Below the pieces are notes generated by a model. The model was not told the origin of the DNA. It did not search any database and saw only the letters and a list, made by a program, of their open reading frames with translations. A DNA stretch of 64,000 nt, taken from Panorpa germanica (Eukaryota; Arthropoda; Insecta; Mecoptera; Panorpidae). The position numbers and the translations under genes were made by a program. The DNA is taken from NCBI GenBank assembly GCA_963678705.1, contig OY783209.1, positions 13,268,001 to 13,332,000 of the forward strand. The letters run 5' to 3'. Shown piece by piece: positions 12,837 through 64,000 of this stretch (the first letter of the stretch is position 1; each line of letters begins with the position of its first letter).

Positions 12837-12954
12837 AAAGGTTAATTTTAGAAAAAAGGATGAACTTAAAAAATTCTTAAAACATTATACGTTTCAAAGC
12901 TCGTGATCCTCACGGCACGTAGATTTACATACACTGCTTCAAAATAACATTCCC

Positions 12955-23100: not shown

Positions 23101-26004
23101 TATTGAAAGCGAGAGTTTTTCCATAAAAGCAAGCTGCTAATAAATCAGCTCTGTCGTTTGTTCATTCTATTGTTTTTTTTTTAAATAATTATTACTTAAA
23201 GAGATCGTAGGGGTGTAAGAAACTATAAAAACTTAATTTTCAGAAGTTGGAAGATAAGATCTACATCTATTATTGAAGTCGACATCGTAGCCGAGATCGT
23301 TAAGGCATTGACACTCGATTGCGATGATCCGGGATTCAATACTGGTTGTTATATTTCTTTGTTAATCACTTTTATGTGATTATAGAATCTTGATAGTGGT
23401 ACAAGGTCAGTTGTACATAAGATGCTAACAAAATGGCGAAACAAGGTCTGTGAACCTATGAAGCCATGAAAACTATTACAAAAAATGTATCTATTATTGA
23501 AAATCGATAATGGATCATCAAAAACGTAAATGGTAAAATCAGTTATTCAATCATTTCATTTCATTTTAGGTAATAACTAAGTAAAATAGATTTTCTACTA
23601 ATATGGTTTCCATTTAAGAATATTTACTAATATTAAGTATGAATTTTTTGCATGAGAGAATCTTCTTAATAATATTTTTACATTTTTTATATAAAAAACT
23701 TTAAACTAAGAGTCACAATTTGAATTTTAATGTAATATTTTATATTCTTACATAATATTTATGTAGCAGATATGTTGACATTATTTGAACTTCGTTTCTA
23801 GGTGCATTTTTAATTCCATTTCTGCTAATGATGCTGGTGATTGGTCTACCGATTTTCTTCCTTGAAATGGTGATCGGTCAGTATTCTGGATTCGGGCCAA
23901 CTAAAGCATTCTCTCGGCTAGTTCCGGCTTTCCACGGCGTTGGCTACGCCGTCATCACTGTCATCACGTTGGTAACGATTTACTACATGGTCATTGTGGC
24001 CTGGATCCTCTTCTACATTTTTGCTTCATTCACGTCTGAGCTGAAGTGGGGCTCCTGCCTGAACGACTTCAATACGCTGAGTATGTTTGTTATTTACTAA
24101 ATCAAATCATGTGGCTCTAACTGATTGTAAACAATGATTGTTTTGACTTACAGATTGCTACAGCGGTTTGAATGAAAAGGCCTGCATTGATAGGCACGGA
24201 CCTAGCTTCACTTTCTTTAATAAGACATGCGTAACAGTGGAAGCCATTTGTAAAGATAACGGTCTCCCTTTTTTCAATAATACACACTGCGGAAGCGCCG
24301 CCATTAATTTTCTGCCGCTGAACCAGGTTATAAACAGAACTCTGGGAGCTGAGGAATATTATTTGTAAGTTACTGCTTTAACCGCCAATTTTGAGGGTTT
24401 TAAATCTAACAATACGTTTGCTTTTCCAGCAACTACGTTCTCAGAAATCACGATGCAACTTGGGACAGCTGGGGCTTCCCAAGTTGGGAGTTAACTCTTT
24501 GTCTCGCATTAGCATGGATCTTAGCATTCCTCTGTCTCATCAAGGGAATCAATAACGCAGGAATTGTAATCTACGTCACTGTGCTGACCCCCTACTTAGT
24601 TCTAGTCGCCTTGCTGGTCCGAGGCTTAACATTGGAAGGCTCGTACAACGGCATCATGTTCTACATCACTCCAGACTTCAGCAGTCTCGCCAACATCAAT
24701 GTGTGGGGCGACGCAGCTTCCCAGATCTTCTACTCCTTCGGCATAGCCTGTGGATCTTTAGTAACATTAGCCTCTTACAATAAATTTAATAATAATTGTC
24801 ATAAGGACGCAATATTTGTGTCCGTTACTAATGTAATGACCGCCATTTTTGCTGGCTTTGTGATATTCTCCATCACGGGTTTCTTGGCCCACGAAATGGG
24901 CGTCGATGTATCTCAGGTTGCCGATGAAGGCCCAGGGTTGGCTTTCGTTGCTTACCCGGAGGCTGTTCTTCGCATGCCGTTGCCACAGTTGTGGTCCGTG
25001 TTGTTCTTCGGAATGATGCTCATGCTGGGACTCAGCAGTCAGTTTGCTGGGATTGAAGCCATTAACACAGCCATCATTGACAGATGGCCTCATCTTAGGG
25101 CACATCGATGGAAGGTAATCTCATCATTTAATAAAACCTTGCAGTACACCACTGAGTTGTGCAAGAGTATACATCTAAACTTCAAGATTTGTCTTCCCAG
25201 GTTACCCTAGGTACATGTGTTACGTGCTTTCTCCTGGCGCTCCCCATGATCTGCAATGGAGGCGTCTTCCTCTTCACTCTCATGGACTGGAATACTGCTT
25301 CGTGGGCGATTCTACTGATCGGAATGTTTGAGGTAAATTGAAAGTACAACTTTTTAATATGTATTGTACATTAAAATATAAACCATATTGAATTCAATGC
25401 TTTACAGATTATTCAAGTATCATGGTTCTACGGGATTAAACGCTTCCTCGATAATATCGCTGATATGGAAATGAAGCTCTCGATAGTCGCCAAGTGTTAC
25501 TGGAGAACTACTTTAGTTGTCGTATCTCCACTAGTTTGCTTTGTAAGTATGGACTAGCACCTCCTTGCAATGACTGATGTAGTATTAGTAGACTGCCTAC
25601 TAGGCGTAAGAAACGCTTGCTAATATTTATGCATGTTTCAGGGATTGTTCGTGCTCCTGATGATTGAGTATGAAGTCGCTGAACTTAATGGCTATGAATT
25701 TCCCGTGTGGGCAGATGCAATTGGAATTTTGATTGGCTGTACCACATTAGCTCCAATTCCATTATTCTTCATCTACAGAGCTTTTATTAAGAAGAAGCCA
25801 GTATGTACACTAAATTTTTGTTTGTTATATTTGTTCGATAATTATATTTATAATTATTTTTATTTCTAGACCGGTTGGGCTCTTCTAAAACCTACGGAAA
25901 GTTGGGCCCCACAATCTAACAATGTTCTGAAGAAGAAAATTAAAGAATCTGAATTAGACTCAAAAGAAAACAGCATACATAAAATAAGTATTATAGCAGA
26001 GTAG
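20176..26004 (+). CDS. SLC6 Na+/Cl- dependent neurotransmitter or amino-acid transporter (GlyT/GAT-like)
   Basis: Twelve-helix plasma-membrane symporter that takes up an amine or amino acid with Na+ and Cl-. Nine exons: 20176-20220, 22579-22765, 23802-24080, 24154-24364, 24430-25114, 25201-25332, 25408-25542, 25642-25800, 25870-26004; 655 residues, all phases agree. TM1 holds [20 protein letters not shown] (residues 57-76, Na+ and substrate site). TM2-3 holds [13 protein letters not shown]. The large second extracellular loop has paired Cys and N-glycosylation sites (NKT, NNT, NRT). TM6 is [20 protein letters not shown], and TM8 has [12 protein letters not shown]. The sequence is closer to GlyT/GAT types than to insect nutrient amino-acid transporters, but the substrate cannot be fixed. 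The 45-bp first exon is the weakest part. Intron 1 holds MITE copy E, intron 2 a SINE-like piece. AATAAA lies at 26068. Confidence 0.9.
21133..21782 (+). mobile_element. GGGCTTGTGTCC MITE, copy E
   Basis: Full-length copy in intron 1 of the SLC6 gene, same strand as the gene. It includes the internal hairpin ATCTCTTTTACGC...TAAAAGAGAT. The 3' end reads ACACAAGCCCGTT, one base off consensus. Confidence 0.85.
22285..22335 (+). promoter_or_regulatory. Candidate internal TATA promoter of the SLC6 gene
   Basis: ACATATAAAACAGG lies about 290 bp before exon 2, in a locally GC-richer patch. An alternative start here would drop the 15-residue first exon. No matching alternative first exon could be proven. 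Confidence 0.25.
23270..23400 (+). repeat. tRNA-derived SINE-like fragment
   Basis: GTAGCCGAGATCGTTAAGGC at about 23288-23307 resembles the A box of a tRNA-Ser/Leu head, and GGGATTCAATACTGG at about 23331 resembles a degraded B box. The spacing between the two boxes is like that of a tRNA gene. It lacks a cloverleaf good enough for a working tRNA. It lies in intron 2 of the SLC6 gene. Confidence 0.5.
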
Positions 26005-26756: not shown

Positions 26757-28575
26757 ATGGCGAATGCCGACTGGCGAGTGTTATTGTTTGGCAACAAACT
26801 AATAAAGTGCAGTACAAATGAATTGTTGTGTACCTTAGAAGCACTGAATAATGATGGTAATAATTTGGAAATAATATATGGCATTTATTTTTCATTTGCT
26901 AATATACGAGAAGAAGAAGTTAATGAAAAGTTATTGAGCCTTTACACAAAGTTAAACGAACATAGCGCTAAATACGATTTTAAACTTATACAAATTGTGA
27001 TGTGGAGCAATCTAGATACTGTCAGTGATATTGAAAAGAGTTTTGCAGAAAATATTGAGGGCATGCCATGGCATGCTATTCCATTAAAAGAAGCGCAAGT
27101 TAGAGTAAGTAAAAGTGTATGGTTCATGTATTTATTCTCTTTAAAAATTATCCTGAATTAAACTCCTACATTAAAATTTACAGCGAACCCTGGCGCAAAA
27201 ATTTGGACCCCGTTCTGGAGGAGCTTCCTTATTATTGTTGGACTCAGAAGGTCGTGCATTATGTAGTGAAGCTCGTGAAAGATTACTACAAGATCCTGCA
27301 GGATTAGAATTCCCTTGGAGACCTCGACATGTTGATGAGGTTGTTGAATTATATTAGATTGATATTATATTAGGTATTTACAAAATATAATTATTGAAAT
27401 ATGATTGTAGATCTTGGAAGGAGTGACACTGCTAAAGCCCGAAGATGATACCACCACTTACAGCGATCTTCCGGCTGATTGTATTCGTGGATTTTATTTT
27501 TCTGCACATTGGGTAATTTAGTGTTATTAATTGTATTATTTTCAGAATTATAGTATTAACCATGTCTCTTCTAGTGCCCTCCATGCCGAGCTTTTGTATC
27601 TCAGTTGCAAGAGACTGCAGAATCTGTTAAGAAAAAACAAACAGCCCAGTGGGAAATTTTGTTTGTATCCAGTGACAGGTAATTGAAATATGTGTAGTAA
27701 TTATAGCAATGGACATGGATCTATAATTGTTTAATTAATTTTTCCTTTAGGAGCAAAGAATCATTTGATACACATCGTGCTGCGATGCCCTGGATTTGTG
27801 TGCCTTGGGAATCGGAGGCAACACGTACAGAACTTGCACGTGCTTTAAACGTGAGGGCAATACCAACCTTGGTACTAATAGATCAGAAAGGTGCTATAAT
27901 AACAACGGACGGCCGTGGAGAAGTAACAGATGATCCTGAAGGATTTAATTTTCCGTGGAAGCCAAGACCTGTTAATTTTCTAACAGAAAGATATGCTGCA
28001 AAGATGCATGACTTTCCTGCAATAGTTTTATTTATTGGTGTGTTAACAATTTAGAAGTACGTATGTAGGCATTTATACAATTCACGTTTTCTCTAAATTG
28101 TAATTATTTTGCAGATGACGACTCCGATTTAAATGCTGTGAAAATTTTAAACTCTGCGGCTGAGAAATATTATGGCGATAATGACATCGATGTCAATTGC
28201 CATTTGAATATAGAATCTCTAGAAGAAAACTTTTTAGATTATCATTTTTTATTTTCTTTCGAAAATATGACAATGGCCAAATCTATTATTAAGCTCACTG
28301 AAGGTAAGAGCAACAAACACAAACAGTTTTTATTATTTTTGATTGCAATTGATTCGGAAACCTCAGACATTCTTCGTGAGTTTGTTGGACTTGAAGATAC
28401 TGTGCCTTTGATGACAGCTATTGATATACCACGAGAAAAATTAGCTATAATGGAAGAATCTTTAGAAATAAGTGTTGAAAATGTTAAGCAGTTTGTAAAA
28501 AAATTTGTCAGTGGCGAAATTGAGTGCACCAAAATAAAATCTAAAGACACTAGAACAAATTTTGAACAGGAATAA
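26757..28575 (+). CDS. NXN: Nucleoredoxin-like thioredoxin-fold protein
   Basis: Thiol-disulfide oxidoreductase of the nucleoredoxin/tryparedoxin type; in vertebrates it binds Dishevelled and modulates Wnt signalling in a redox-dependent way. Six exons: 26757-27104, 27184-27339, 27411-27512, 27575-27678, 27751-28037, 28115-28575; 485 residues. There are three thioredoxin-like regions: an N-terminal one without CxxC (residues 1-170), the central catalytic one with FYFSAHWCPPCRAF (Trp202, Cys203, Cys206), and a C-terminal one without CxxC. The central domain continues with FVSSDRSKESF and the cis-Pro segment VRAIPTLVLID. Intron 3 falls exactly between Trp202 and Cys203. The length slightly exceeds vertebrate nucleoredoxin. 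Confidence 0.9.
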
Positions 28576-29787: not shown

Positions 29788-30868
29788 TCAAATAGCGTCG
29801 TAACTATTGGGATTGATACGCTCTGTATCGGAAGTACCTTTTCTGCAGCCCCGGCGCAAGAATTCGACACCGTTCTGAAATATAATTATGCAATGTTATA
29901 TACATATATATATAAAAAAAAAGAAGTCAGTTATGACTGGATATAACATTTACCATTGTTCTAGATGGTACACTTCTCCAAAATTCCAAATTTGGAATCA
30001 TTTCAAGACCTCTTGCTCCTAGAGAGAATCTATTGATGAGCATTCCAAGTAATAGATAAGTTCCGATGCATGTAACGAGGATCATAAATAGAATGAAAAA
30101 CCATCCATGCCCACTATCAAAAATCTTGGGACAAGCAACTTGTGAAAAGAGATTCAAGGTCTAAAAATATATATTATTTAAGCATGTAACTAACTATACA
30201 ATATCATTAAAAAGAATGAAGTGATTTACATACGTGATCTGTAGCATTTTTAAAAACTAAATATGATTCAGCTGTGTGCACGCAAATTAAATTAATAGTA
30301 GTTTGACTGTAAAAAGAAATTAATTACATTTAAAATTATGTGAATCAGCAGATGCTCCCAAACTTTTTACAACAAGTTAATCCTAAAACTTACATTTTGT
30401 TGCGATTATAAACGTATGTTAATTGAGAATTTGGTTCTTGTTTAAATGCACCCTCGGAAAATACGCCTAGATTTGTGTAGGAATAGTTAACCAGTATTGA
30501 ACTCTGGTTGGCCCATGTATTTGTTGTTCTGAGACATAGCTGCAAAATGTTTGTATATTATTGCGGTGTTATTTTTACTTTTTAGTAAAAGGATAAAACT
30601 CAATTTAACTTACAGAATAATCATCGCATTCAGTCTTATTTACAGGAGCTTCACTTGGTATCAATTTTGTATTAGAACATGGATGAAAATAGTAGGTTAG
30701 GTTATTTATTGTTGGAGAAATTATAGGCGAAACTATTGTGTTTAAATTTACTTCTTCTCCATTATCAAACATACATATACAATTATCAATATTATTACAA
30801 ATTTGAGCAGACACTGTATTATATACTATTAAAAGTAAATATATGAATTTGACACTTATGTACTCCAT
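29788..30868 (-). CDS. Type I membrane protein resembling cation-dependent mannose-6-phosphate receptor
   Basis: Five exons on the minus strand: 30614-30868, 30394-30539, 30234-30306, 29954-30160, 29788-29874; 255 residues, phases agree. A signal peptide (MEYISVKFIYLLLIVYNTVSA) precedes a lumenal domain with Cys pairs and five possible N-glycosylation sites (NLT, NKT, NQS, NYS, NAT). The single helix WFFILFMILVTCIGTYLLLG is near residues 180-200. The tail GARGLEMIPNLEFWRSVPS closely follows the M6PR/Atg27-type tail, which in M6PR carries sorting signals. A role in Golgi-to-lysosome sorting is inferred from that tail. The lumenal MRH-like fold is weak by eye, so mannose-6-phosphate binding is not claimed. 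Confidence 0.65.
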
Positions 30869-31309
30869 GATGAATTTACAAAAATCTAATTTGCATATAA
30901 AACAGTTGCTGTCGAATTAAATAAGAAATTATTTTCTTGGATGTATATTTGAAAATTATCAGTTTAGAATAATTAGATTTGCATTATCTTTAATAATACA
31001 CTATAAAATACGCAGTATTTCACAAAACTTAAGAATTTAAATCCAATCAAGGTGCAGATTAGAACAAGATTTACTTTTAAGATGGCACCACTTTGAAAAT
31101 GTATATATTCTTTTTAAATATTTTACTAAAAAAATAATACTAAGGTAATGATTAATTAAATAAATAATATTTTTATTTTTAATACATCAACCACATTAAA
31201 TTTAACAGTGTCACAGTTACAAACAATAAAAAATATTCGGACTTAAAATAATACAGCAGCATTAATTTGACTAAAAACCAAAGATTTTTGCTCTTAAATA
31301 TTGAGCTCT
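30869..31309. other. Upstream region of the receptor-like gene
   Basis: AT-rich. It lies between the start codon of the receptor-like gene and the end of the giant gene, both on the minus strand, so it must hold the promoter of one and the polyadenylation site of the other. TTTATT-type signals (reverse AATAAA) occur around 31160-31175. Confidence 0.4.
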
Positions 31310-34300
31310 TTAATTGCGTTTGTATTCACTAGGCTGCTGTTTTTTACAACGAACCTAGAAATAAAATATATAGTTTACAATTACTTGAAGTAATTAAAAT
31401 ATTACGTTGAGTACTATTGTATAAGTACTTGAAAGTATATTTAAATTTACGCCTGCGGTACGCAACCAACACTATTTTATTATGACTTAAAAATGAATTG
31501 AAATAAATGTACATTTTCAATAAGTAAGCATTAAAGCATTATAAACGGTAAATAATTTATAGATTTTTTATTAAACTTTCGTATTACAGCCGTTCGTATT
31601 ATAAAAGAAAAGTCACAATATAACAAATTAAATGTACGTTTTAATTTGATGTTTAGTATACATTAATATTTCGCTAAAAAGCCAATCTGTTTAAGTTTCC
31701 CACTGGTCTTGTGTTACGAGTACCTAAAATAGTTTCATTTATTTATTTATTGTTTTGATTTTTTGTTGTTAACCATACGATACTAGGATACAATTATGAA
31801 TAACCTATATCAAATTATTACATGAGTATAATCATTCATTTAATTACTGAAAACGCACTTTAAAAAAATATCAATTTCATAATGATGCATTATATATATT
31901 ATTAATCTGTAGATAACTCAGAAAAATGTGTTCGAATTTCGCTGGAACGCATACTTCCCGAAAATTACTTTCGCAGGTATCTCAAAAATCAGTATTCGGA
32001 GATGTCTTATTGATAGTTTATTCATATTACACAATAACATGTGCAGTACGGAGATACCGCCCATTTTTTCTATGATCTTTTGTCGTTCTTACTCACGTGT
32101 CGGCCTCTTTGTGGATATGTGTGTGTTGACCACACGGCTGGTCTCACATTGAAACACACTACTTGCGGCGCCGAAAATTGATATATTTTCAAAATTCCAT
32201 TGTCATAACTTACCGCGTTCGCACAACGTAGCATATAGTTGACCTTGTAGGTGGTGAGAGTTTCTATCGGATCCTGCAAGCGCTGTTCTGACCTGCATTA
32301 AACACAAAAATAATTAAGAGTACTGTAACAACAGATAACTACCAAATAATCCATTCCAATATCAAGGAGTTTAGTTTCAATTTGTGAGATGTATGAGTTT
32401 TAAATTTCCCGCGTTGTTCAAATTTTTATCGATCAGTTACGATTCCGATTGAAACTGTCAGTTTTTCGTATGTGTAAACACTAAAATTTAAACGTCAAAT
32501 TTAAAGCAAGCCGGAGCCGAGAACAGTAGCTGAAGAGTATTGTGTAAGAAAAGGAAACCTTATTCTGATCGAATCGTGTAAACTGGAATCTAAAATGTAA
32601 TGAAAATTGAAAGAAAATCGAGTCTGGTTGTGAAACAAAATCATGTCGTGTAATAGGCCTATGAGCAAGATGAACTACGAAGTAAACAGCGGTAAATTAG
32701 AAACTTCAATTCCTTGTGAATATAGACAATAGTAATGTAGTAATAAAAATACACACGATAGAATATCACTTTTAAAGTGTTTTGCCTGTGTTTTGGAAAG
32801 GGTATGTGAATTTAATTAGTACTTACGGTGAATTTGAACTATATTTGTAATTTGGTAGTTTTTTCTTTTCACTTAGTAGTTTCTTCCTTGCAAGGTTGCG
32901 CATTCTTAAGTTCTTCGCCAATTGTGATATGACAGTCTTGTCGGCGTCAATTTGAGAGCCCAGTTGCATTACTGAGAAAAAGCAAATGATATATTATAAA
33001 AAACACATCTCATTAAATATAAGACAAAATGTGCTTGTGGACTCCTTCTTTAGGGGTAAGTTTTTTAAATTTTCCACAGCCTTCGTTATATAATACTTCA
33101 AGAGATACACAACCCAGACACACAAATACTCTTATGCATCTCTGTTGTATAAAACAGATAAATCGTGGTAACGTACCATGCATTAGAATTTTCTACAACG
33201 TTGGATCCCTTTAATAATTAAATTTATAAATCTTTGAAGAGGAATATAAAAAGACTAGGGCTTGTGAGTTCATTGTTTGGGGGTATTTTTTTATGACTTG
33301 GTTGAAATCTAGTTGAATCAGTTCACCCCGCAATGGGCTTATGTCTTATGTCTTAAATTTTATAAAAGTGTACTATATATTGATAAAGTGGGTTACTAGA
33401 ACTTCAAATGTTCCATTACTTTTTAATAACTCTTTATATGTTTGGAGATATTAACAATTAAAAGTCATTTTGTCTGTTTAATTATTCAAGGGATTCAACG
33501 TTGTACAACATTCCAAATGCATGTGACCTTACAACCGCTATGTTGTTTCTCTTTTATACAACAGAGCGTAAAAGAGATATACTCTTCACAGAACTCTGAC
33601 AAGTTTACAGCTCATAAATCTCTGCTATACGTATTTATATATCAAAATATCAAATATTATTTACAGCTATTTCAAAGAACAATAACATTTCAATATTACG
33701 TCTGCCGTAACAGGGTTAAGTAAAATAAAAACTTATTCTTTAATTGACTTGAATATTTCGACTACCAACAGCTACAAAACATTACCACAGCATTGACCTA
33801 ATTAACAAATAACTGACGTATAAAATGCATTCACGTCACACAAATGGCCGACCATCTCTAGCGCTAAAACTACAATTCAAATTTTTAATTGCTATATCTC
33901 CGTCAACATTTAGAAATTTTATAAAACAGATACGCCAATACACATTTATTAACATCAATTTCAATCAACAATTGAAAAATCGACCACTTAAAAAATGAGG
34001 ACATAAGCCCATTATATCTCTTTTAAAATACATTTGTAATTAAATATTCTTACTCTTTTGTTCGGTGCTTAATTGCTTCGTTAAAATACATTTTCCAAAC
34101 ATCCATTTGTCATTATTTGTATCAGAATCTTTCGAAGAATATTCTTGAGACCGGGCTAGAATATAAGAGCTGTTTATAATAGCTGAATGAATATACTGCA
34201 CATCATATTTTTAATAGGTATAGGTATAGGATAATAGTCCAATTAGATGCGAATCGCATCACTCTGAATGGTGATTGGAATCCTATTAGACATTAGTGTG

Positions 34301-37300
34301 ACATTACATGAAGCTTTGGACAGCATGTCTGAACCGGCCGGAACGCTCCGTACCCCCTCTGACTGCCTTCCTAATACTTTCCAAACGAGGTTTGCCAAGG
34401 TGCAAGTCGTGGTACTAACACTTCTTCTCAGATTTCAACATAAGGACACCAACTAACGACCGTACACGAGTAGAACACAACCAATAACGACTTATATGCA
34501 TATGCCTTTACATGCGGACAGAGATCTTCATATCAAAAATAAGTTGCAGCCATTTTGAATATACCGAATCTTCGTAAATGTTCGGCTAACACGAAACTAA
34601 TATTCTTGAAATCGTATAAATAAATCACACCTATTTTATTATTTGTTTGTGTGGATTATAATACATATACATGGTCTATGTAGTGGTGAGAGATAATATG
34701 TTCTCTCGAACACTGTCTAACTACTGTCTAACCGCCATCTGATACGAGATTACTAAGATACGACAAATTGTTTGTAGGTAGATGGCGTTAGTACGACGAT
34801 AGCTAACTCTAATTTACAATTTTAATTATTTTAGTATTAGTCTTAATCATATCATGTTCTCAAATAAATAATATTATTCATCTAAAACTACTTACTGGAC
34901 TTATTTTTTACACTGCTTACTCCCGAACTGCTCTGCAAGGAACTGGACCGTTTCGACGTCTTTTTGCTTTTTTTTGGTAAGCACATTTTGTCAAGGTCTT
35001 TAGAGCTTATCTGCTGTAGAATTTTTATTATTAATATTATACTAAAATAAATTGTACTAGTTATTTAAATTTGCTCTCGTTACTTATTCTTATGATACTG
35101 TTTTCCTCACTGTAACATCTCTTTACTCGAACTACAAACAGTTATGTAGCATTTACGTATAATTTGTATCTAAATGTATCTACTACATAAATAAGATAAC
35201 AATTTATTTGGTGTGGAGTAGAGAAACATATGTAAATAGATTGCAAGACGATTTTGTGTTTCAGTGAATACATTTCTAAGGGTTTGTCAAAAATTTTATA
35301 ACCTTTATTATGGTTCTCAAACTTACGCTTAAGACTTAAAAATATATAGAGTATTCGATAATATCCCAGTCATATAAAAATTGGAATTTAACTAGAAAAT
35401 ATAGCAATATTCATTTTCAAAACTAATTTTTGCGGTTCCAACTCATTAAAAGTCAGTGGAAGAAAGCTTGAAATGTAGATACGTTATTCATCTAACTAAG
35501 TGCAGCTTTAGATTTTGATTCGCGTTTATAGTTACTTACATAAAACGATTTAAACATAAAAAAACATGATTTTTTTGATAATATTTAACCTGCTGTATAT
35601 TATCGCCATCCATATTTCGCTAGAGAAAATGGCCAAGTATCGTTTCACCCTAATAGAATTTAGAAAAACATTTGTCGCTTTTAAAAATTTAAAGATAATA
35701 TATGCTGAATAAATAATACAGGCTCAAATCTAAAAACTGGACTTTCAGTTAAGGAATCAAAAATACAAATTAAATAGCGCCATTTTACATTATAACGTTG
35801 ATTTCAAGAAAGATGAATTGAACTACATCTGTAAGTTTGTTTTAAGGCCGTGAACTTTAGTTATTTCTTAGTTAAGAAGGAAAAAGTGGATTTAAAAACT
35901 CACTTCGGCAAATGGTTTCGGTTGAATCGAGGAGTCAGTCCTCAGAGCCATTCCTTTCATTTTTTGTTCAGTAGTATTTGGAGACAGTCTTCGACACTTC
36001 TTCGTGCTCTTCAATTTGATGCCATGTTTGGGAGCTGTGCGAGAACTCATTCCCCGGGACGGATTTTTAATAAGTCTACCTGGAGATTCGTTTTCATAAA
36101 CACTTGATCGAATTAGAATCCTACTTCTTTGCGTACCTGGTGCAGAAGTCACTCTTACTTTTTTGTATGCCTTCCGCATGCTACTTGGGATTACAGAGGT
36201 GTTCGATTTCTTAGGACTGTGCGGAATGTCATGTAGCATTATTTTGTCTTTTTTAGGAGAAGGAGGTTCATAGTAGGGTGATGGCATGAACATTTGAATA
36301 GTGTCCAGCAATTGTTGATCAATGACCATCGGTTTCATTTTCTTGACTTCTACGTTTCTGGAAGCACTTCCTTTCGTATATTTTGTTTGGTGGATCGCAG
36401 AATATTTCTGCTCTGTTCTGTTTCTGCTTTGCTCCGATCTAAAAGAACTATGTGTAGGGAATAAAGATCCAGGTTGCAGTGAACACATATCAATTACCGG
36501 CTCTGTTTTGTAATTTGCTTCAAAAGTTTTTCGTTTATGTACGATACTTTCACTTAGACCGTTATCTTTTATCCACTTTGGTTCGGAACCGCACATTTCC
36601 GCTGATGTGGAACTTTCATTATATACTTCAGTTGTATGACTTTTACTTACAGATCGTTCCTTCTCAAAAATGCATTTAACTGACATTGGTCTTGAATCTG
36701 CCTTGTAGATCATTTTATCACGGTTGACCGCTATTTGAGTTAAACTGTCTCCTCGTTCGGAGAACGGGTTACTTGGCTCATGCATCTCATCAATGTCTTT
36801 ACTTTGAAAAATATGGTTTGGAGTGGTCAATGGCAGATCATGAAACTTATAAACACAATTAATATTGAATGAATCTATCAAACTATTCATTTCTTTATAG
36901 TTGATGTTAGTAATTTGACGATCGTCCAACTCGTAGGAAGGAAACGATGGCGATTGCGACGGCGGTGGAGATGGTGGTGGTGGTAGCGGTGCCGATGGTT
37001 TGTTTTGTATAGGATCGGACATGTTTCGAGCATATAGTACATCAACCTGAGAATGGGAGGGTTCAACCGGAATGGGCTCGTTGTTATAATGCGAAAAAGC
37101 AGTAGCCGCAAATTTACTCTCTGGGTTGAAAAGCGTTGGTGGAATGCTTACATGCTGCAAAATGTACGAAATATTGTTAGAGGCAGAAGAGTTATCAGGC
37201 TGTGAGTGCTTCTCTTCGGGGTTGACACGTTTTGGAGCGACATATGTCCCTACATTTTTGCGTGTAGCCACATTGGTCGTTTTATCTTCCTTGCCGCTAG

Positions 37301-40300
37301 GTAATGAGTTAATATTATACTCTGTTGCAACATCTTCAACCGAGCTCGTATAAAAAATCTTGGGAACTGTTCCTTTTACATATTTAGAATCAAATAATTT
37401 GGGATGTAAGGGAGCTTCGCATTCTATTTTAATTTTCTGAACAGGGGTACTCGGTTTGCTAACTTTAACGTTTGTGGAAATTTTCTTCGAGGACTTACTT
37501 AATGGTTGTGTTACAAAATTTAAACTTTTGTTCGCAGAAGCTGAATTTGTACTTTTCCGCTGGTGGTGTTGTTGATGATTTGTATTTCGAGAGGAACTTT
37601 GGCCTGGGCTATGTTGATTTGACGCTTTTCTTGACCTATTTGAATGGTTCGATGCTTTTGCATGAAGATTACTTTTGGTTGTACTTGATATCAGATTGAA
37701 ATCATTTCCGAGTTTCGAGGATTTCGATTTCTTGGGTGTAGGAGGCTTTGAATCTAAGCGATGTGTTTCTGATGTGATGCCCAATTTAGATGAGTGTTTT
37801 GATTTTGAATGTGATTTCTTTTGTGGAACTACTTTGTAATTTGTATTATGTTGACTTTGAATTCTTAGCGTACGCGATATCGATGGCTCGCTAGCCGTGT
37901 TACGGTTTATCGACTTTGTTGGTGTAGTTAATGGAGCAATTTTATTCGAAGAGGTATATTTAATAGATAAATCTGTTTCACTTAACGATTCTTTGCTTGT
38001 TACTTCTGGAATACTTGAGATACCACTTGACCTTGAACGATAAGTATAGCCAATGTTGTCGTATGGCGCATATTGGTGCTTGACTTCGGAGTCAATTAAT
38101 GATTGAAGAGCATCAGCTACATGCATTGGATTAATTCCCAAATGAGTGGATTGGTCAGATGGTGACACAACTACGTCCATCTGAGGATTGATGTATGCGT
38201 CATCCAGAGCATACCAGTTATTTGCTTTTGGTTTCTCAAATTCTACTTTTAAAGAAGTATCTTTTAATTTGGAATAACCTAATGTGTTTATATCGCATGA
38301 GGCAAGGCTTTTCTGCGTTAGCGACATTGGATCTTTGGCATCAGTCTCTAATAGCGCTGTATGAACACTTGTTTTAGTTATTCTTTTCCGCTTTCCTTGA
38401 GCTTTTTCTTTATCGTTTGCTTGGTCTGAAACAACCATATTAGTATGTGTGGGATTGGCTGGTGGCAGACTCAGTGTTTCCAATTTTGATAGTCCTAGAG
38501 TCTTTGTTTTCTTTTTCATTTTTGACTTGTTCTTGTCATTTAAGTTACTCTTACTGTTTGTTATATCTAATGGATCTTCTGATGGTTCATAACTCCTGAG
38601 CGCATATGATGTACCAGGCGAACTAGTAACTAGGAAAGTAGACTGCTTGTTGTTAGATTCATCTACTAAAATGTGTGGATGATTACCACTAGTATCATGT
38701 GCAGTTTTTAAATTACTTTTTGATGCAGCTACCATAGGTTTAATCACATCAGAACCACTTGAACTTCTCTTACGATGTGACTTAATACTTGTTGATGATT
38801 TTCCTCCTGTTGACTTATTTGCCAAACTAATTCCTGATTTACCTCCCACCCTTATTACTGGTACTCCCAATTTTTGAGTTAAGGCTGATACTGATGCAAC
38901 ATCTTTTGAGTTATGATCTGTTAAAGTTATTGTAGATTTGGTTCTCTTAGATTTCGTACCTCCTAAACTTGTTGCTGATTTACCTGTTATAGTTCCTATC
39001 GATTTACCTCCAAAACTTGTTGTGGATTTACCACCTAAAACTGTTATTGATTGACCTTCCAGATTGGTTGTTGATTTACCTATACTTATATCTCCAACAT
39101 TTGTCAGACTCGGACGTGATGGTGTACCTTTACCTGCAACTGTACTTGATGGTGCACCTGTACGTGTACCAGTACTTCCACCGGTACTTGCACCAGTACT
39201 TCCACCGGTACTTGCACCAGTTCTTGCCGCAGTACTTCCTCCCGTACTTGCACCTGTACCTGCACCTGTACCAGTACCTACACCTACACCACTACCAGTA
39301 TCTGCACCTGTATTTACTGTATCACATTTCGTTCTACACGGTTTAGCGTTTGACTTGGATTTATCTTTACTGCCACTATCACTACCACTACCTGTTTGCT
39401 TCGATGAACATGTGCATGGTGGTTTTGATTGTTTTCCACCTGCACTCGTGGAAGTACCAGTTAGGGTTTCATATCCTTTGCCTTCCGTTGAACAAGGTTT
39501 TGGTGCTCCCATTACGATATGCTCTATTTCATTCAAAGCGTTTTGCAAAGACTCATAAATGCCCTCTAATGGCGCAGCGTTTTTTGGACATGAAACAGCG
39601 GCACCAGAATTACTTGTTTTTTTGCTCATACAATCTAATATGCCTCTCAAAGATTTTTCTAAAGCAAAACATTCGGGGTCACAAGGTCCGCATTTTCCGT
39701 CATTTTCGTTGTTTCCTCCGTTCCTACCGTTCCCACCGTTCCCACCGTTCCCGTCGTTCCCATCGTTTTTACCTTTACGACCTTTCCCACCTTTCCCGTC
39801 ATCATCGTGAGATTTATTTGAGTTCTTTTTATGTTTGACGCTAACTTCAGCATAGGGTAAATGATACGTCGAAGAACTAAAAAATTTCTCGTCTGACGGG
39901 TTCTTTACATGTGTAGTTTTCAACTTTACTGAATACTCCGTATTGTCATCGCCACCATCTGTACCATGTTTATTAGACTTATTTGATTTATTGGAAGCGG
40001 TTGACTTAATATTAGTTCCTGCTCCACCAGTTCCTGCTCCACCAGTACCTGATCCACCAGTTCCTGATCCACCAGTTCCTGATCCACCAGTTTCTGAACG
40101 GGGTTTACAAGGACAAGTAATACAAGGCATATCAACTAAACTCAACACAGGACACGAATGCTCATCATCATTATCTCCATCCTTTTTTACTTCTTTGCTA
40201 TCTGGCTGGAAAGAAGAGTCTACGAATCCTGTGCAGTCTTTACTGCAATCTTTATTCTGCTCATTTGACATTTCTAATGCTCGTTTTATTTCGTCGATCA

Positions 40301-43300
40301 TTTGCTTTAAATTACTTGTCGCATCGTCTGCACAAATTGGTTGTGGAGCACAGGGCCGTAGACTACAAGGCTGTAGAGGACAAGGTGGTGGACTACAAGG
40401 TGGTGGCATACAGGGCGGTGGCATACAAGGTGGTGGACTACAAGGTGGTGGTATACAAGGCGGTGGCATACAAGGTGGTGGACTACAAGGCGGTGGCATA
40501 CAAGGAGGTGGCATACAAGACGGTGGCATAGAAGGCGGTGGCATAGAAGGCGGTGGCATAGAAGGCGGTGGCATAGAAGGCGGTGGCATAGAAGGCGGTG
40601 GCATAGAAGACGGTGGCACAGAAGACGGTGGCATAGAAGACGGTGGCATAGAAGACGGAGAAGCACCAGGCTCTGGAGTAAATGACAGTGTGTCACTAGA
40701 CGGTGGGGGACGAGGCTTTGGAATACTTGGCTTTGGAGGACTTGGTGCTGGATCAGACGATGGTTGAGCACAAGGTGGTGAAGCATAAAGCGGTGGAGGA
40801 CAAGGTGGTGGAGGACAAGGTGGTGGAGGACAAGCTGGTGGAGCACAAGGCGGTGGAGCACAAGAAGAAATAGCAAAACATGGTGAAGTACAAATCACAG
40901 CAGGACAACGTGATGAACTATTTGATGAAACACAAGGTTCTTCCTTACGACGTGACTTAGCAGAAGGTGGAAGTTCTGCCGTACAAGGACCTAGTCGTTT
41001 AATTTCGGTGAGCAGTTTCAACAACATTTGTTTGGGGTCATCCTCACAATCCTCCGGACAAGTTCCTCTATTCGAATCTTGTAGTGTTGAAGAATTAATT
41101 AATGGTACTGTGATACTCGGTTTCTTGGTGCCTTCTCTGGCGCATATAGTCATATTCACAGTTATATCATCTTGATCAGGAGAAGGACATGTTCGTTTTT
41201 TGGTTAGGGCAAGGCAAGGATCAATTTGCTGCGGTGATGCCGATGAACATGGCTTTGACTGTCTTATTATATCGTTAAAAGCTTGTTTTATAGCTTGAGA
41301 AATAGAGAATGTAGAACCGGGACATGGTTCCGGACGACATGGCTTTGGAGAACATGGCAGTGGAGAACATGGCTGTGGAGAACATGGCTGTGGAGAACAT
41401 GGCTTTGGAAAACATGGTTGCGGTAAGCATGGCAATGGAGGGTATGGCAATGAAGGGCATGGCTGTGGAGGACATGGCTGTGAGGGACATGAATTATCAG
41501 TTTGTTGCTGGTTGCATATACAAGTTGCTCCATCTTTCTGTTGGTTGTTCTGATTTTGCTGGTCCATACAATCAAGGAGTTGTTTGAAAAAGGATTCTAA
41601 TGCATAACACTCTGGGTCACAAGTTCCATCACTTGGTGAAGCATCAGCTTCAACGACAGAATTGTTAACTGGATCGTCTGCATTAGTACCTGTTGGCTTA
41701 CAAGGACAAACAATACAAGGATTATTTGTCAAAGTCAACAAAGGACATATTTTCTTTTCTATGCTTTCTTCATTTCTAGGCATTCCAGGGCACTCTGGTT
41801 TACAAGAAGTCTTTGGCGCTTTTATTGGACACTCTTTTTTGGATGCCTCAACTGCATATTGATTTGCAGCCTCCGTAACAACAGACAAAGGCACACATGG
41901 TAAACCAGATTTTTCCAATATGCATGTGCAAGACTTCGATGAATTGGTTGACGTAATAGGAGCTGGTTTTTTCATTTCGGAGAGCAGTTGCATTAGCATT
42001 TTTGTGTTTTCGTTCTCGTTCTCGTTAGTACAACTTTCTTTAGATGGGAGATCTAGTTTTAAACGACCACATGATGGTAACTGAACACACGACTTTGTTT
42101 TAACAGTTTCTTTTGGTACACATATTCTTATATTAAGCGGCTTTTCACAAATAGCCGTGCATGTTGTTTTCTTGTTTAGGGCAATACAGGGTTCATCTAC
42201 TTGCGGCGAAGGACAAATATTACGTGGACACGTTTCTTGGCATGGCTCAAGTAATAGTAGAACTTCTTTTAAAGCATTTTTTGCATTGCCCGTTAGCTTG
42301 TCTGTAATCTTTGGAGAACTACACGCTGATGTATCATTTTTCACTATTTCTAAGATATCTTTTAACATATGTTCGAGTATTTCATTTGTTTTCGCTATTT
42401 TCATACAATCTGACATGGTACTTGTCCCGGCTCCCTGTACAGCTGTGGTTTGCTGTGATTTACATTGACAAACTTTTGTTTTGTTTGGGGACGGTTTCTC
42501 GGGACATTTAGGCACCGCACAAGGTGGTTTTTGACAATCTACTAGACACACTTGTGAATCTGAAAATGAAACGCTTGGTGATGCTCTTGATGTAGAACAA
42601 GGTGTACAGCTTAAATCCTCTTCTGCAGGACCTGTTAAATATGTAGCTGGGGGACAGGAACATGTCGATGGGGGAGGATCTCCGTATACTATTCGCACTG
42701 CCTCATTAACAGCCCTCTTTAGATAATCCATAATTCCTTCCGGTCTCTCACAACACTCGGGTTCATATGATCCGCAGGGTTTACAATCAGTTATTTCTGA
42801 AATGTAAGCACAGGTAATGGTCGTTTTATGTTCATGGACAGTTTCCAAAATATCTTTTAGAACCATTTCTAGGGCATCATAATCTGGGTCACATGGTTTA
42901 GCGGAATCAGAATTTTTTAAGCATTCGTCGATGCGTATATTTGTTAAATACGAATTCGAATTTGATTTGACAGCTTTTGATTTTACATTAGTATCTGAAG
43001 TACTACTGCATTGTTCCACAGTTAGACTGACATTTTGTTGTTCGCAATAGCCTAATCGTCGTCTATTTGGGACTCTGTTTTCTTCCGCTCCGCTTATGGA
43101 ATTAAAGAATCGTGGACCAGAGCATTCCAAAATGTCATCAATTGCTCGAAGTTGCCTACTCTTGCATCTTAGATCAGCTTCAACCGGGTTGTCATTGTTT
43201 AATATTTTACCTATACTAATATCAAAGAAGATCTCTATCGAACTCATATCATCCCTTAAGGAATCCAGGCTCGACAGTTCCTGTTTGCATATAGATAGCT

Positions 43301-44801
43301 CCTTATTTTTCTCGTTCAGTTCTATTGAAATATCCGATATTAAGGACCGAAGATCTTCCTGTAATTAATATAAATTGTATTAAAATTCAACCGTGACTAA
43401 TTTAAGACAGATTTCTGGACAGATTTCTAGACGATTTTACCTCTTTTTTATTCTGTTTGCACACAGCTACCTGTAAATCTTTTATATCATTGGACTGCAT
43501 ACAAATAGTTGAGCAAGTATTATTGACCCGCTCTTTTAAACTTGTCACTTCTTCAGCTTTACAGCACAATAAACAATTCTGTTGTTTTATTGTTGCCTTT
43601 AAACAATCAACTTCACGTTGGTTTTCGCATTTAAGACGATCTAACTGTAGACACAGCTGCTCTTTCTGGGACACAAGGCATTGGTAATCTTGTAGAGCTG
43701 ATTTCAACCTGCCCTCACATTTTTCAGCCCTATTTATTAATTCGCAAACGACATCGTTCATTCCCTTGAATACTTCCAATTGTCTTTTGAGCATATCTCG
43801 CTCGTGTGCAGTGTCATTCAGGCATTTGGCAGTCTGAGCTAGTTCACACTTCTGGTTTTTGTAGCATTGGTCCAGCTCCGTTATCTTTGAATGTAGACAG
43901 ATTATTTCTTGGTAGCAAGGGGTTTCGCAAGGGTTTCCACAAGGGTTTTCGCAAGGGTTTCCGCAAAAATCTTCCGGATAACAGCTTCTAGAACAGTCGT
44001 CCGGTGGTGCTCCGCAGGGTGGCGTCATGTACGACGCCAGTCGATTGGATATTGTCGCATTGCATGTTCCCTAATCAATGACAAATCAATCAATTTCTCA
44101 ATAAGTTGAAAATATGACCACTACATTAAAAATATCAATAGGTCAATCCACCTTCTTACGTTTTATATCTACCATAAAGTCTCTACACGGTGTTTACAAA
44201 AATGTTAACTTTTAATATAGTGGGCTCTTTCTTCAAAATACGTTTTACAAGTTGCTGGACATCATAATTTAATTTGATAAAGAGTGCGCAATGGAACAAA
44301 ATATTGGTTAAATACATATCATTTACAGTATCAAATTTGAGCTCTGATCAGCCCTACTGAACACCAATTTGGAAACATAAGTGCCTCAACAATCAAAATA
44401 AAAATTTAAAAAATTAAAAGGCGCGGGTAGTTTCGAAATTAAATGAACAGGAAGTAGTCTTACCAGATTACAGTTCGATAACAGCTGAAAAAAAATCACA
44501 TGTTATAATGGTTGTATAACAAGTCAAATTTGTGCAGCAATTAAATTTGAGTAACTTTCTTTCTAAAGAGTTAATTGGAAATACGTACATACGAGGCCGC
44601 TATGTTCTTCAGCGATTTGAAGTTGCTGACGAGCCCCAGCAAATACACACTTCGGATGTATTCGTCCGCATGCATGGCCCTAACGTCATTGCAAGATTCA
44701 TATCGTTTCAGACGCCCCTCACTTCTTTTCCTGCAAGGCTGCTGTATGCAAAGTTTATTGGTGTTCAATAACCCTTGTCCTCTTTGAGTTATATATGACA
44801 T
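31310..44801 (-). CDS. Giant Cys/Pro/Ser/Lys-rich modular protein, family not recognised
   Basis: Nine coding exons on the minus strand: 44589-44801, 44464-44484 (21-bp microexon), 43441-44070, 35904-43358 (7,455 bp), 35590-35619, 34896-35013, 32827-32971, 32214-32292, 31310-31354; 2,911 residues with every phase matching. The start at 44801 has an in-frame stop just upstream. Order: N-terminal helix; Cys-Gly-Asn-Pro repeats; coiled coil with many Cys (about 115-330); repeated Cys modules (about 380-1350) split by Pro-Pro-Cys, Pro-Cys and Gly runs; a long disordered basic Ser/Lys/Asn region; and a short conserved-looking tail (YKVNYMLRCANAVRC). There is no signal peptide or membrane helix. 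The frame stays open past 35904 to a stop at 35892, but GAA|GTGAGT is a strong donor and the phase-0 30-bp exon continues the frame. Function unknown; composition suggests a disulfide-linked structural protein. Confidence 0.7.
31560..31885. repeat. Diverged direct repeat, copy 2
   Basis: Partner of 28815-29140, in the last intron of the giant gene. The shared blocks are in the same order. Confidence 0.65.
33110..33226 (-). mobile_element. GGGCTTGTGTCC MITE, internal fragment
   Basis: Contains CTGTTGTATAAAACAGAT and ACAACGTTGGATCCCTTTAA, matching the middle of the family. Both ends are missing. It is in intron 6 of the giant gene, just beside copy F. Confidence 0.6.
33332..34013 (-). mobile_element. 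GGGCTTGTGTCC MITE, copy F (reverse)
   Basis: Full-length copy in the intron between giant-gene exons at 34896 and 32971, with the internal hairpin present. Both ends carry the same change (GGGCTTATGTC and GACATAAGCCC), keeping the inverted repeat complementary. Confidence 0.85.
38950..39095 (-). repeat. Gly-Lys-Ser decapeptide repeat in the giant gene
   Basis: Roughly five 30-bp units coding variants of GGKSTTSFGG and GKSATSLGGT. The region is low-complexity and basic. Confidence 0.65.
39140..39330 (-). repeat. Gly/Thr/Ser minisatellite in the giant gene
   Basis: Codes TGASTGGSTG-type units with a 12-24-bp period (GTGASTGGST and relatives). The plus strand reads as pyrimidine-rich CACCAGTACTTCCACC repeats. 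Confidence 0.8.
39705..39795 (-). repeat. Gly/Asn minisatellite in the giant gene
   Basis: 9-bp units coding GNG and DGN (NDGNGGNGGNGRNGG). The plus strand shows CCCACCGTT and CCCGTCGTT units. Confidence 0.8.
40018..40100 (-). repeat. GTGGSG minisatellite in the giant gene
   Basis: Four to five 18-bp units, GATCCACCAGTTCCT on the plus strand, coding GTGGSGTGGSG and GTGGAG. Confidence 0.85.
40335..40880 (-). repeat. Pro-Pro-Cys and Met-Pro-Pro-Ser minisatellite in the giant gene
   Basis: About 30 units of 15 bp. Two diverged blocks code (S/C)MPPP and PPCxP. The periodicity keeps all six frames largely open, which explains long spurious antisense frames here. Confidence 0.9.
41325..41495 (-). 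repeat. SPQPC minisatellite in the giant gene
   Basis: About eleven 15-bp units coding Pro-Cys pentapeptides (PQPCS, PLPCS, PKPCR). On the plus strand these are GGCTGTGGAGAACAT units. Confidence 0.9.
43908..43972 (-). repeat. Cys-Gly-Asn-Pro repeat in the giant gene
   Basis: Four to five 12-bp units coding CGNP, CENP and CETP just before the coiled coil. Similar in form to the Cys-Gly-Pro repeats of insect sperm-tail proteins, but too short to imply homology. Confidence 0.75.
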
Positions 44802-45054
44802 TTAATTCACTGATTTTATTCTAATTTCACGAAAAATTTGTTATGTTTTTAAACGATGACTTATAATTTGGTATTGAACTTTTCTTTTGTTTTTTTTTTC
44901 TACAGATTTATATCATTCACAATTTAAATTGTTTTTTGTTCACCAATTTTTAAACTATTGGTAATACGGTAAAGCTCCATTCCCACTTATACTTTTATTT
45001 TTTAATATTAGATTTTATTTTGACAATCTGCTTGCGTTGGTAATATACTTTATT
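44802..45054. promoter_or_regulatory. Upstream region of the giant gene
   Basis: Sequence 5' of the minus-strand start codon at 44801. AT-rich; no clear TATA box or initiator could be chosen. Confidence 0.25.
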
Positions 45055-45835
45055 TAATCTCAGTACCTTATAGAAAAAGATATAAAAAACATAAGAAGGA
45101 GAGCAAGGTTTAGATTGGGAAATGAGGAAATGGAAACAGATACTGGGAAAGTAGTGAGGAAAGAAAGTATAGAGTATGCGGAACGGAGGACGAAACACTG
45201 GAGCACATTAAGTTTGAGTGTAAGGAAAAAGTAGTGAGCAAAATGAATATTGGCCAGCTATTAAAGGGAGGCAATGAAGGAAGGAGGTGGATGGCGGAAA
45301 TAGAAAAAAGGAAAGAAAAAACAGGACAATAAATAAGCTCGTAGCTGAGTTGCATAAGGAACATGAAGAGAGAGAAAGTACTAAAAGAGGCAGTGAAGGG
45401 AAGCAGGAGAAAGAAAGAAGTAGCGAGGAAACAGTTAAACTTCAGTCCAGAAAAATAGAGGTTTTTCGGAAAGGAGATAAGGTCAAGAGGTGGATGACGG
45501 AGATAGAGACAATAATAAAATAGTAAAGGAAGAGAGTCAAGAAGAAATAGTAAAGTAAGAGAGTCAAGAGGAAATAGGAAAGATAGAGCGTCTATGCCTG
45601 TAATAGACATAAGTGGAGAAGTGAAAACGAAGAGAGAAGGCAGGAAGGATAGTGAAACGATAATAGAGGGATTGTCGAGAGGAGACAAGGAAGGCAAGAG
45701 GTAGAAGATACAGGCAATAAGGAAGGAGAAGCAGGAAACGGTGTGAATAAAGGAGGAGTAGCGGACATGAAGAGAGAGGATCAAGAAAAGAAGAAACAGA
45801 AAGTACTATTCGAAGTAGTAATAGTCTAGAATAGT
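45055..45835 (+). mobile_element. LINE 3' end remnant
   Basis: Very similar to 13100-13350 (GAAGGAGAGCAAGGTTTAGA onward). The Cys-knuckle region is frameshifted. It then continues into a purine-rich tail of repeated GAAGGAAGGAGGTGGATG-like units different from the 13-kb copy. Confidence 0.7.
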
Positions 45836-52969: not shown

Positions 52970-53575
52970 TTATTATTATTATTATTTTTAACGTTTTTGC
53001 CATTTGGCACTACATTCTTGTGCCTTAACTGATTTATTTACATGTTATTGTGCTTAATTCAATTTGTAATTAATAAAATATATATAATTAAATATATATA
53101 AATAAATATAATATACTTAATATATAAAATTCCTTATAAAAATAAAAACAAAACTGCTACTGCTACTGCTTCGCTCTTCCTGCTACTGTCCCTCCTATTT
53201 CTACTCTGCCATTCCTCTTTCCTAGTTTTTTTTTCTTTCTCTATATCCATCATCCACCTTTTCCCTTCACTTTCGGCATTACATTCTTCTGCCTTAAACA
53301 GATTTAAAAAGCTTCACTCTTCCTTCTTCTAATTATTTCTGCCATCCATCTGTTCCCTTCCTTGCCCTCTTTTAAGAGCTGCCCAATATTCATCTCATTC
53401 CCTACTTTTTCCTTACAATCAAACTTAATGTGCTCCAGTGTTTCGTCCTCCGTTCCGCACACTCTACACATTCTTTCCTCACTACTTTCCCAGTATCTGT
53501 TTCCTTTTTCCTCATTTCCCAATCTAATCCTTGCTGTCCTTCTTATGTTTTTATTTAATTTAATTTAATAAAGAG
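52970..53575 (-). mobile_element. LINE 3' end remnant (reverse)
   Basis: Minus-strand 53522-53304 reads an open C-terminal segment with the intact knuckle CRVCGTEDETLEHIKFDC. The (ATT)n tail is at 52970-52986. It is the best-preserved of the four LINE pieces; the 5' end is truncated at about 53570. Confidence 0.8.
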
Positions 53576-62400: not shown

Positions 62401-64000
62401 CACTTTATGAATATGTAGTACAGTTTTATAGAAATTAAGACATAGAACACAAGCCCATTCATATTCTCCAGGTGCAGTGTACTCGATAGCAATTTATTTC
62501 TATGCTTTCAACAACTGAACAATGTGTTTTAAATTTACACAAGCAATAAGATCTAAATTTTTATTACAGGTGGTTACTAAACATATTCAGAACAGGGTTA
62601 CAGCGACCTCTAGAGGTCACGGACATGTTCCAACCCTTAGCATCACATAAATCCACAAGATTAGGGGATAGATTTGAATTTGAATGGAACAAAGAAATGA
62701 ATAAACCAAAACCTAGTTTACTGAAGGTTATGATACGAATTTATGGACTCAAAGCTTTAGGGCTCGGTTTCCTGTACTCAATACTTGAAACAGCGACAAG
62801 GTAATAAAAATATTCTGTAAAATATGGTTTGGTTCCACAATCTAATTAACTCTTAAATCAATCATTTATGTTTATTTTTAGAATAGCACAGCCCTTGTTA
62901 CTTGGAGGGTTGATATCATATTTCAACCCAGGGCAAACGAATATCACGTTGGAAGAAGCTTATTGGTACGCAGGGGGGATTGTCATATGTTCCGCGATAC
63001 CAGTTATCGCATTCCATCCCTTTATTTTATGTATTCTACATGTAGGGATGCGAATAAGAGTAGCATGCTGCTCTTTAATATATAGAAAGGTAAGTTTCTT
63101 TGCTAATAATAATTTGTAAAAATTGTAGTCTGTGTTTCTGTTTCCACATACTTTCAGCCTCTTAAATATATTTTTTAAACTTAAAAATATTATTAATTGG
63201 CCAAAAAAGATACTAACAAAAATTAATTTGGTTTAAATGTCAATGTAGTGCAACCCTTAAAATATTAAATTTGTATCAAGATTTATTACGTCTTTCTAGT
63301 TTATTTTAATTTGATATTTAATAATAAATGTAAACTAGATACAAACAGTTTGTGATATGTATTGTTTATGATATAATCTTCTCCAGACGCTTGTACTTTA
63401 TAATTACACATATTAATCTTTTGTTTGTTACTATTGTGCTCCTATTTGCAATAAATACTGTTGTTTCGACAGTATTTGCACATGATAAATGTATTTTTAA
63501 TACTACAAATATTTGCTATTAGATAATTTTAGCTATAAGATAATTTCAGAAAAATATTTTTTTTAAAAAAACATCATTGTTCAATAATTGACATGATATT
63601 TTATAAGTTATGCAATAAATTAATTTGATTTAAAAAAAAGTGGCATAGAAACAGCTTGAAGAATGTAACACATGTTTTTTTATTTAAATCTTATGTAAGT
63701 TTGCCGTTACGAAATATTCAATCAATCCAGTAATTGTTGTGCCAGTTGTAACAATATTAATTCATGCTTCCAGGCGTTACGCATGAGTAGAACATCATCA
63801 GGTGAAGGCCTGTCAGGACAGGTGGTTAACCTAATGTCCAACGACGTACACAGGTTTGATCTAGCCGCTGCGTTTGTTCATGACCTCTGGAGAGGTCCTG
63901 TTGATGCTCTTCTATATGGTTATTTCATATATCGTGAGATAGGTGTTGCAGCTGTTTTAGGCGTTGCTTTCATGGCTTTATTCATTCCATTACAAGGTTT
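59494..64000 (+). CDS. ABCC-type ABC transporter, MRP4-like, 5' part
   Basis: Exporter of the multidrug-resistance-associated protein family. It moves organic anions out of the cell at the cost of ATP. The first exons join in phase: 59494-59573, 62570-62800, 62882-63089 and 63774 onward, running off the window. The N-terminus (MDSGKNIRPKVANPVSKANV) and the WLLNIFRTGLQRPLEVTDMF segment are characteristic of short ABCC proteins (ABCC4, fly l(2)03659) that lack the extra TMD0. The first membrane domain begins at LKALGLGFLYSILETATR and continues with ALRMSRTSSGEGLSGQVVNL and LMSNDVHRFD, the conserved elbow and first intracellular loop. Nucleotide-binding domains lie outside the window. Intron 1 (3 kb) holds MITE copy J. 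Confidence 0.9.
61784..62459 (+). mobile_element. GGGCTTGTGTCC MITE, copy J
   Basis: Full-length copy in intron 1 of the ABC transporter, ending 110 bp before exon 2. Ends are AATGAGCTTGTGTTC and GAACACAAGCCCATT, with the internal hairpin intact. Confidence 0.85.

Follow-up and report, generated by a model that had tools for sequence, protein, structure and literature searches.

What kind of protein is encoded by a gene with one 7,455-bp exon that makes up 85% of the product, and does this gene have relatives? The gene lies on the minus strand of a 64,000-nucleotide stretch of Panorpa germanica DNA (contig OY783209.1, positions 13,268,001 to 13,332,000; this whole stretch is called the window, and positions without a contig label are given in its coordinates). 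Its coding part runs from 44801 to 31310. An initial annotation of the window, which stated no strand, had assigned it to an unknown family. This held for the libraries, where Pfam, NCBIfam and the PDB sequences gave no match within the thresholds, but the genome contains 12 sister genes. Judged by sequence comparison, this giant gene is rich in Cys and belongs as an outlier to a coiled-coil family of 13 genes, for which no described counterpart was found. The "orphan giant gene" gives way to a family whose N-terminus is constant and whose giant exon differs between most members. With expression in the germ line, this would be a clear example of proteins invented rapidly on an unchanging chassis, and insect sperm tails would gain a candidate disulfide scaffold.

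Gene model and reading frame

Eight exons with AG/GT intron borders join in one frame and encode 2,901 residues. A candidate ninth exon of 102 bp (34155-34054) has good splice sites and fits in phase, extending the protein to 2,935 residues. One such stretch was present in its intron, against 0.02 expected by chance, a figure obtained with criteria chosen post hoc, when the exon had already been seen. Residue numbers refer to the 2,935-residue model; the predicted protein has a mass of ~318 kDa. The giant exon (43358-35904) is open for 2,485 codons, with no stop codon where ~152 would be expected from base composition (chance, ~5e-69), and its other two sense frames contain 151 and 221 stops. 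When a codon score was trained with 1,393 codons from neighbouring genes, the proposed frame came out best for eight of the nine exons, the exception being the last, 45-bp exon. The in-frame scores of the small exons 1 and 5 (-0.196 and -0.164) were no better than those of introns, showing that this score tells little for short exons. Beyond the stop codon in exon 9, polyadenylation-type hexamers are located at 31183, 31177 and 30994.

The giant gene is real. Its open frame and correct splice sites support the initial proposal of a real, maintained gene, and the share of the 7,455-bp exon and the matching exon phases were confirmed. Of nine exons proposed, eight are clear, and the ninth is based on splice sites and phase only. 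The length of ~2,911 residues was replaced by 2,901 (eight exons) or 2,935 (nine exons).

A family of 13 MSYITQR genes

A whole-genome search with exon 1 detected 11 other places, and a second query brought the family to 13 genes in all. Eleven of them are arranged in tandem at C6:10.707-10.803 Mb, 2.5 Mb from the giant gene (C6:13.31 Mb), and one is located at C2:23.54 Mb. In alignment A4, which contains 12 of the 13 genes, MSYITQR is invariant and there are 14 invariant columns; the thirteenth gene likewise begins with MSYITQR. The N-terminal MSYITQR...RLKR..SC.D.R domain is present in the giant gene with 38-52% identity to 11 others, and exon 1 closes with a phase-0 donor in 11 of 12 family genes examined. 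When exon 1 was compared with each of the 12 paralogues, 25-34 residues were identical but only 8-16 codons. This points to conservation of exon 1 at the protein level, with silent sites probably saturated. In a tree of exon 1 (13 rows, 69 columns; seven of ten inner branches open), the giant gene was paired with the C2 gene with support of 92/90.

For the paralogue pair 10707011/10716009, ratios of nonsynonymous to synonymous substitution rates (dN/dS) of 0.25 in exon 1, 0.26 in the coil and 0.38 in the giant exon were obtained. In this pair, dS was 0.75 in exon 1 and 0.07 in the coil, which suggests gene conversion. Most of the 11 genes in the tandem cluster (C6:10707011-10802763) have an evident coil and a giant open reading frame (ORF). 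Two ABC-transporter-like ORFs, recognized by eye, lie among them (C6:10761072-10761503 and 10775147-10775578). Their displayed ends are identical, suggesting recent segmental duplication within the cluster.

Shared coil and exon junction, with no relation detected beyond

A hidden Markov model (HMM) of the coil, built from 10 of the 12 paralogues, scored 25.4 bits on the giant gene, whereas 500 heptad-preserving shuffles reached 14.6 at most and the reversed sequence -8. The 42-residue head of exon 4 reached a summed score of 260 against the giant-exon heads of five paralogues, which were picked by eye for likeness from ten displayed; the best of 2,000 heptad-preserving shuffles reached 239. 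This comparison left out p16 (a near copy of p07), p25, p34, p42 and the C2 gene. In five of six paralogues examined, the exon-4 acceptor occupies the same residue position in phase 0, and a phase-0 donor matching that of the giant gene is plain in three of the six (p07, p16 and p95). By these comparisons, the coil, the giant-exon head and the intervening intron are common to the giant gene and the family.

The MSYITQR paralogues have the same exon-1 domain, phase-0 donor, coil, intron position and giant-exon head as the giant gene. Several of them additionally carry a common mid-module (C..xHI..AL..TN.AI.AII) together with a C-terminal coil. Repeats of their own occur in several, including GPDGKP-type arrays (e.g., GPDGKPIG) in three. 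In contrast, the giant gene possesses Cys modules followed by a basic tail. The mid-module and the C-terminal coil, demonstrated for several paralogues, were not used to define the family.

Past the coil, no part of the giant gene was detectably common to the family in profile and pairwise tests. When a mid-module HMM from four paralogues was applied to five stretches of the giant gene, 52, 228, 4, 198 and 36 of 300 shuffles scored as high; the sole low count, 4/300 in Cys-module unit 2, came at just 1.1 bits. With a C-terminal coil HMM from three paralogues, 197 and 109 of 300 shuffles were as high. In pairwise tests with the giant gene, between 37 and 420 of 500 shuffles did as well, whereas all five paralogue controls gave 0/200. 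Two likenesses noticed by eye, of the Cys modules to an amplified paralogue mid-module and of exon 7 to the paralogue C-terminal coil, were not supported by the tests.

Duplicated Cys modules and Pro-Cys tracts

The giant exon contains two-and-a-bit diverged copies of a Cys module of 400-500 residues. Five block pairs between units, picked after a self-BLAST, were tested with two kinds of shuffles (1,000 each). No shuffle reached the observed score, with the exception of block pair 790-860/1298-1380, for which 1/1,000 was as high when Cys and Pro were fixed. The module core reads CDPEC(Y/F)ALE in units 2 and 3 and CDPDYDALE in unit 1. On this evidence, the modules arose by tandem duplication and have since diverged. 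Of their alignments, A1 and A2 were badly positioned; A3, imperfect too, served for fold prediction.

Two Pro-Cys tracts in unit 2 have a 15-bp period and consist of the pentads P-C-x-P-P and C-x-P-x-P. They have been partly homogenized by recent turnover. Owing to the unit turnover, changes in the array are mostly nonsynonymous, and its substitutions give no evidence of constraint.

Could the giant gene be a decaying or fused relic of little function, formed when a family gene became linked with unrelated repeat-rich DNA? The lack of a detectable relation between its later parts and the family's own modules would fit, as would the recent repeat homogenization and a single module block whose dN/dS is close to 1. 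However, the 2,485-codon frame is unbroken, the splice sites are correct and the diverged modules keep their cores, and we consider a relic highly improbable.

Searches for relatives outside the family

With Pfam, exons 1, 3 and 4 gave nothing over the curated cut-off; with NCBIfam, exons 3 and 4 gave nothing over the cut-off and one coil match far below it; and no PDB sequence was found under an E value of 0.05. Twelve exon-1 domains compared with Pfam gave four families, one member each, at E 0.029 or worse. The GAS/Gas8 microtubule-binding coil (PF13851) stayed under its cut-off of 32.3 bits for the giant gene (10.8 bits; E 0.31) and for one paralogue (18.2 bits; E 0.0017).

When exon 3, the tail and Cys-module units 1 and 3 were used to search the whole genome, only the giant gene matched; by sequence it is the only one of its kind in the genome as searched. 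Queries with units 1 and 3 reported no copies of the Cys module elsewhere in the genome, but they also missed the diverged units of the giant gene itself, and distant copies may therefore escape such searches. No relative was found in viral contigs (queries: exon 3, unit 1, part of the tail and A4) or in prokaryotic genome contigs (query: A4), which says little, since these collections hold hardly any insects. A literature search gave no title or abstract opening naming the protein, and MSYITQR combined with GPDGKPIG gave 0 papers.

Architecture of the predicted protein

A Cys-studded coil, Cys modules, Pro-Pro-Cys tracts and a basic tail had been annotated initially, and all were found. Residues 1-130 form a basic, Cys-rich head and residues 131-375 a coiled coil, in which Leu, Ile, Val and Met show a 3.5-residue periodicity (0/5,000 shuffles equally strong). 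AlphaFold, run without relatives, predicted helices at residues 51-83 and 88-209 of exon 3 (mean predicted local distance difference test [pLDDT], 64.7) and short helices only in Cys unit 1 (pLDDT, 44.9). In three stretches, the coil cysteines sit off the hydrophobic core when compared with all positions (P 0.03 to 0.08). Their placement in the core for chain-to-chain bonds was not supported by this position test. Of the 146 cysteines, 135 precede residue 1,641 and 11 are in the tail.

No 19-residue stretch has a mean hydropathy above 1.16 and the N-terminus is without a hydrophobic run. A signal peptide or membrane span is therefore unlikely, as read from hydropathy and with no dedicated predictor. 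This bears on the question of whether the product is an extracellular structural protein of cuticle, silk, eggshell or seminal secretion that is cross-linked in the extracellular space. High Cys and Pro contents, repeats and giant size are common among such proteins, and the giant protein has Pro-Cys pentads. However, its N-terminus (MSYITQRGQG...) is polar and basic, with the MSYITQR start kept in 13 of 13 genes, strongly hydrophobic 19-residue stretches are absent, and the coil is built of heptads. We regard an extracellular location as improbable.

The tail, with an isoelectric point (pI) of 9.86, three SPKK/TPKK motifs and a Ser/Thr-rich composition, would suit a germ-cell chromatin or nuclear protein, with the tail on DNA and the cysteines locking compacted chromatin. 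In contrast, the coil is acidic, as are Cys units 1 and 2 (pI 5.0-5.3), and to our knowledge a 318-kDa protein with a long coil is unlike sperm nuclear basic proteins. A chromatin role also appears improbable.

Proposed role

A reading that we favour tentatively, at a little less than even confidence, is that the gene encodes an intracellular ~318-kDa structural scaffold, the large, Cys-rich and dispersed member of the 13-gene family. In this family, a basic MSYITQR head that stays constant is followed by a long coil and by a giant exon, the content of which differs in most members. The head may dock on a partner common to the family, and the coil may oligomerize the giant protein. Surface cysteines of the coil and of the Pro-Cys tracts could form inter-chain disulfide (or metal) cross-links, and the basic, phosphorylatable tail could bind an acidic partner.

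A somatic coiled-coil scaffold of the cytoskeleton, centrosome or cilium, in which the cysteines bind metal or are merely tolerated, would share the heptad coil and the predicted helices. Sub-threshold Pfam likeness to coil families such as GAS points the same way, although such below-cut-off scores are obtainable from any coil. The Cys modules were duplicated and are still recognizable, suggesting that cysteine matters, and we rate this alternative as rather unlikely.

Where might an intracellular scaffold of this kind act? Disulfide cross-linking is served by Cys-x-Pro repeats or Cys/Pro pentads in the ODF1 and keratin-associated proteins of mammals, and the Drosophila Mst(3)CGP sperm-tail proteins are small. 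ODF1 and keratin-associated proteins gave no match in the Pfam or PDB-sequence searches of the giant gene. The Mst(3)CGP proteins (Mst84D and Mst87F) have short-period Cys-Pro repeats, as has the giant protein. Theirs are Cys-Gly-Pro triplets, whereas those of the giant protein are not of this type but are pentads in a 318-kDa coil protein. PMC10645079 describes fly Cys-Gly-Pro proteins as testis products and reports that losing the Mst84D genes disturbs axoneme and mitochondrial-derivative assembly. According to PMC5712127, on Lepidoptera, lineage-specific proteins can be abundant in the proteomes of sperm. For these two reasons, and by analogy, the sperm tail would be the likeliest site of the giant protein, a placement we offer with considerable doubt.

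Several points weigh against the proposed scaffold. Up to two mismatches allowed, the translational control element (TCE) of fly testis genes (ACATCNAAATTT) had no match at 44801-45200, beside the start codon; in the whole window there were 91 such matches against a chance mean of 89.7. Constraint on the gene's own Cys modules is unproven: inter-block dN/dS ranged from 0.25 to 1.0 (pooled dN 0.61 and dS 1.13, with overlapping rows and saturation), values that are unreliable at this divergence. In the three stretches, core avoidance by the coil cysteines was no stronger than that of other non-hydrophobic positions (P 0.19 to 0.36), and both AlphaFold models are weak. The paralogue gene models were read by eye from open frames. 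These ORFs are mostly Cys-poorer than the giant gene, so the function of the family need not involve disulfides.

On a broader and unlikely view, this would be an undescribed insect family in which a fixed docking head and coil with a freely evolving giant exon yield varied filament or matrix proteins, the giant gene providing a redox-locked cross-linker for a cytoskeletal material peculiar to the species, perhaps that of the sperm tail.

Mitochondrial evidence on the source of the DNA

The initial annotation, made from the letters alone, had implied an origin in Lepidoptera. Contig C249 (16,386 bp) is mitochondrial, with COX1 detected by Pfam and frames read as ND2 and COX2 that are open under genetic code 5. 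Ahead of ND2, the tRNAs I, Q and M follow in that order, as seen by eye (ARAGORN detected Q alone). According to PMC3463433, the Lepidoptera sequenced earlier, all of them Ditrysia, show M-I-Q, and I-Q-M represents the ancestral order of insects, which persists in ghost moths; I-M-Q is reported for one tineid moth. The order on C249 makes a butterfly or ordinary moth unlikely and is, for Ditrysia, at odds with the implied origin. The COX1 protein resembles that of a stonefly or a relative, which is a tentative lead. A search for the chorion family as a test for Lepidoptera gave no match, yet none of 14 controls matched either. Outside C249 there are 19 more COX1-like places, 17 of them over the Pfam cut-off, and two on contig C5 each occur twice, ~104 kb apart.

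Features of the window

Coordinates are collected in Table 1. We take the C-5 cytosine methylase to be DNMT2.

Table 1. Coordinates of the giant gene, its parts and neighbouring features in the window
Feature	Position	Strand	Evidence
Exon 1, MSYITQR family-defining domain (71 aa)	44589..44801	-	Alignment A4, phase-0 donor
Exon 2, 21-bp microexon	44464..44484	-	AG/GT sites, phase 0
Exon 3, Cys-rich head and Cys-studded coiled coil (210 aa)	43441..44070	-	AlphaFold helices, paralogue coil HMM
Exon 4, giant 7,455-bp exon (2,485 aa)	35904..43358	-	Open frame; first 42 codons match five paralogue heads
Cys module unit 1, residues 443-867	41622..42896	-	Self-alignment vs shuffles
Cys module unit 2, residues 868-1374, holds both Pro-Cys tracts	40101..41621	-	Self-alignment vs shuffles
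Tandem arrays in Cys module unit 2	41337-41482, 40761-40864, 40380-40658		TRF
Partial Cys module unit 3, residues 1511-1640	39303..39692	-	Self-alignment vs shuffles
Basic Ser/Thr-rich, Cys-poor tail, from residue 1641	35904..39302 (exon-4 part)	-	pI 9.86, 11/146 Cys
Exon 5	34896..35013	-	Splice sites, phase
Candidate exon 6, 102 bp, optional	34054..34155	-	Splice sites, phase, codon score
Exon 7	32827..32971	-	Splice sites, phase
Exon 8	32214..32292	-	Splice sites, phase
Exon 9, including stop codon	31310..31354	-	Splice sites, phase
MRM3-like rRNA methyltransferase	6338-7003
C-5 cytosine methylase	8422-9428
SLC6-type transporter	24410-25207
Thioredoxin-like, below cut-off	28069-28572
ATG27/mannose-6-phosphate receptor-like	29930-30160
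ABC transporter-like, below cut-off	62850-63116

Three retrotransposon-like fragments, similar by eye, are located at 12923-13270, 45126-45520 and 53307-53564 and have RLGNEEK or CGTEDETLEHI stretches in common. The middle fragment ends ~325 bp upstream of the start codon of the giant gene.

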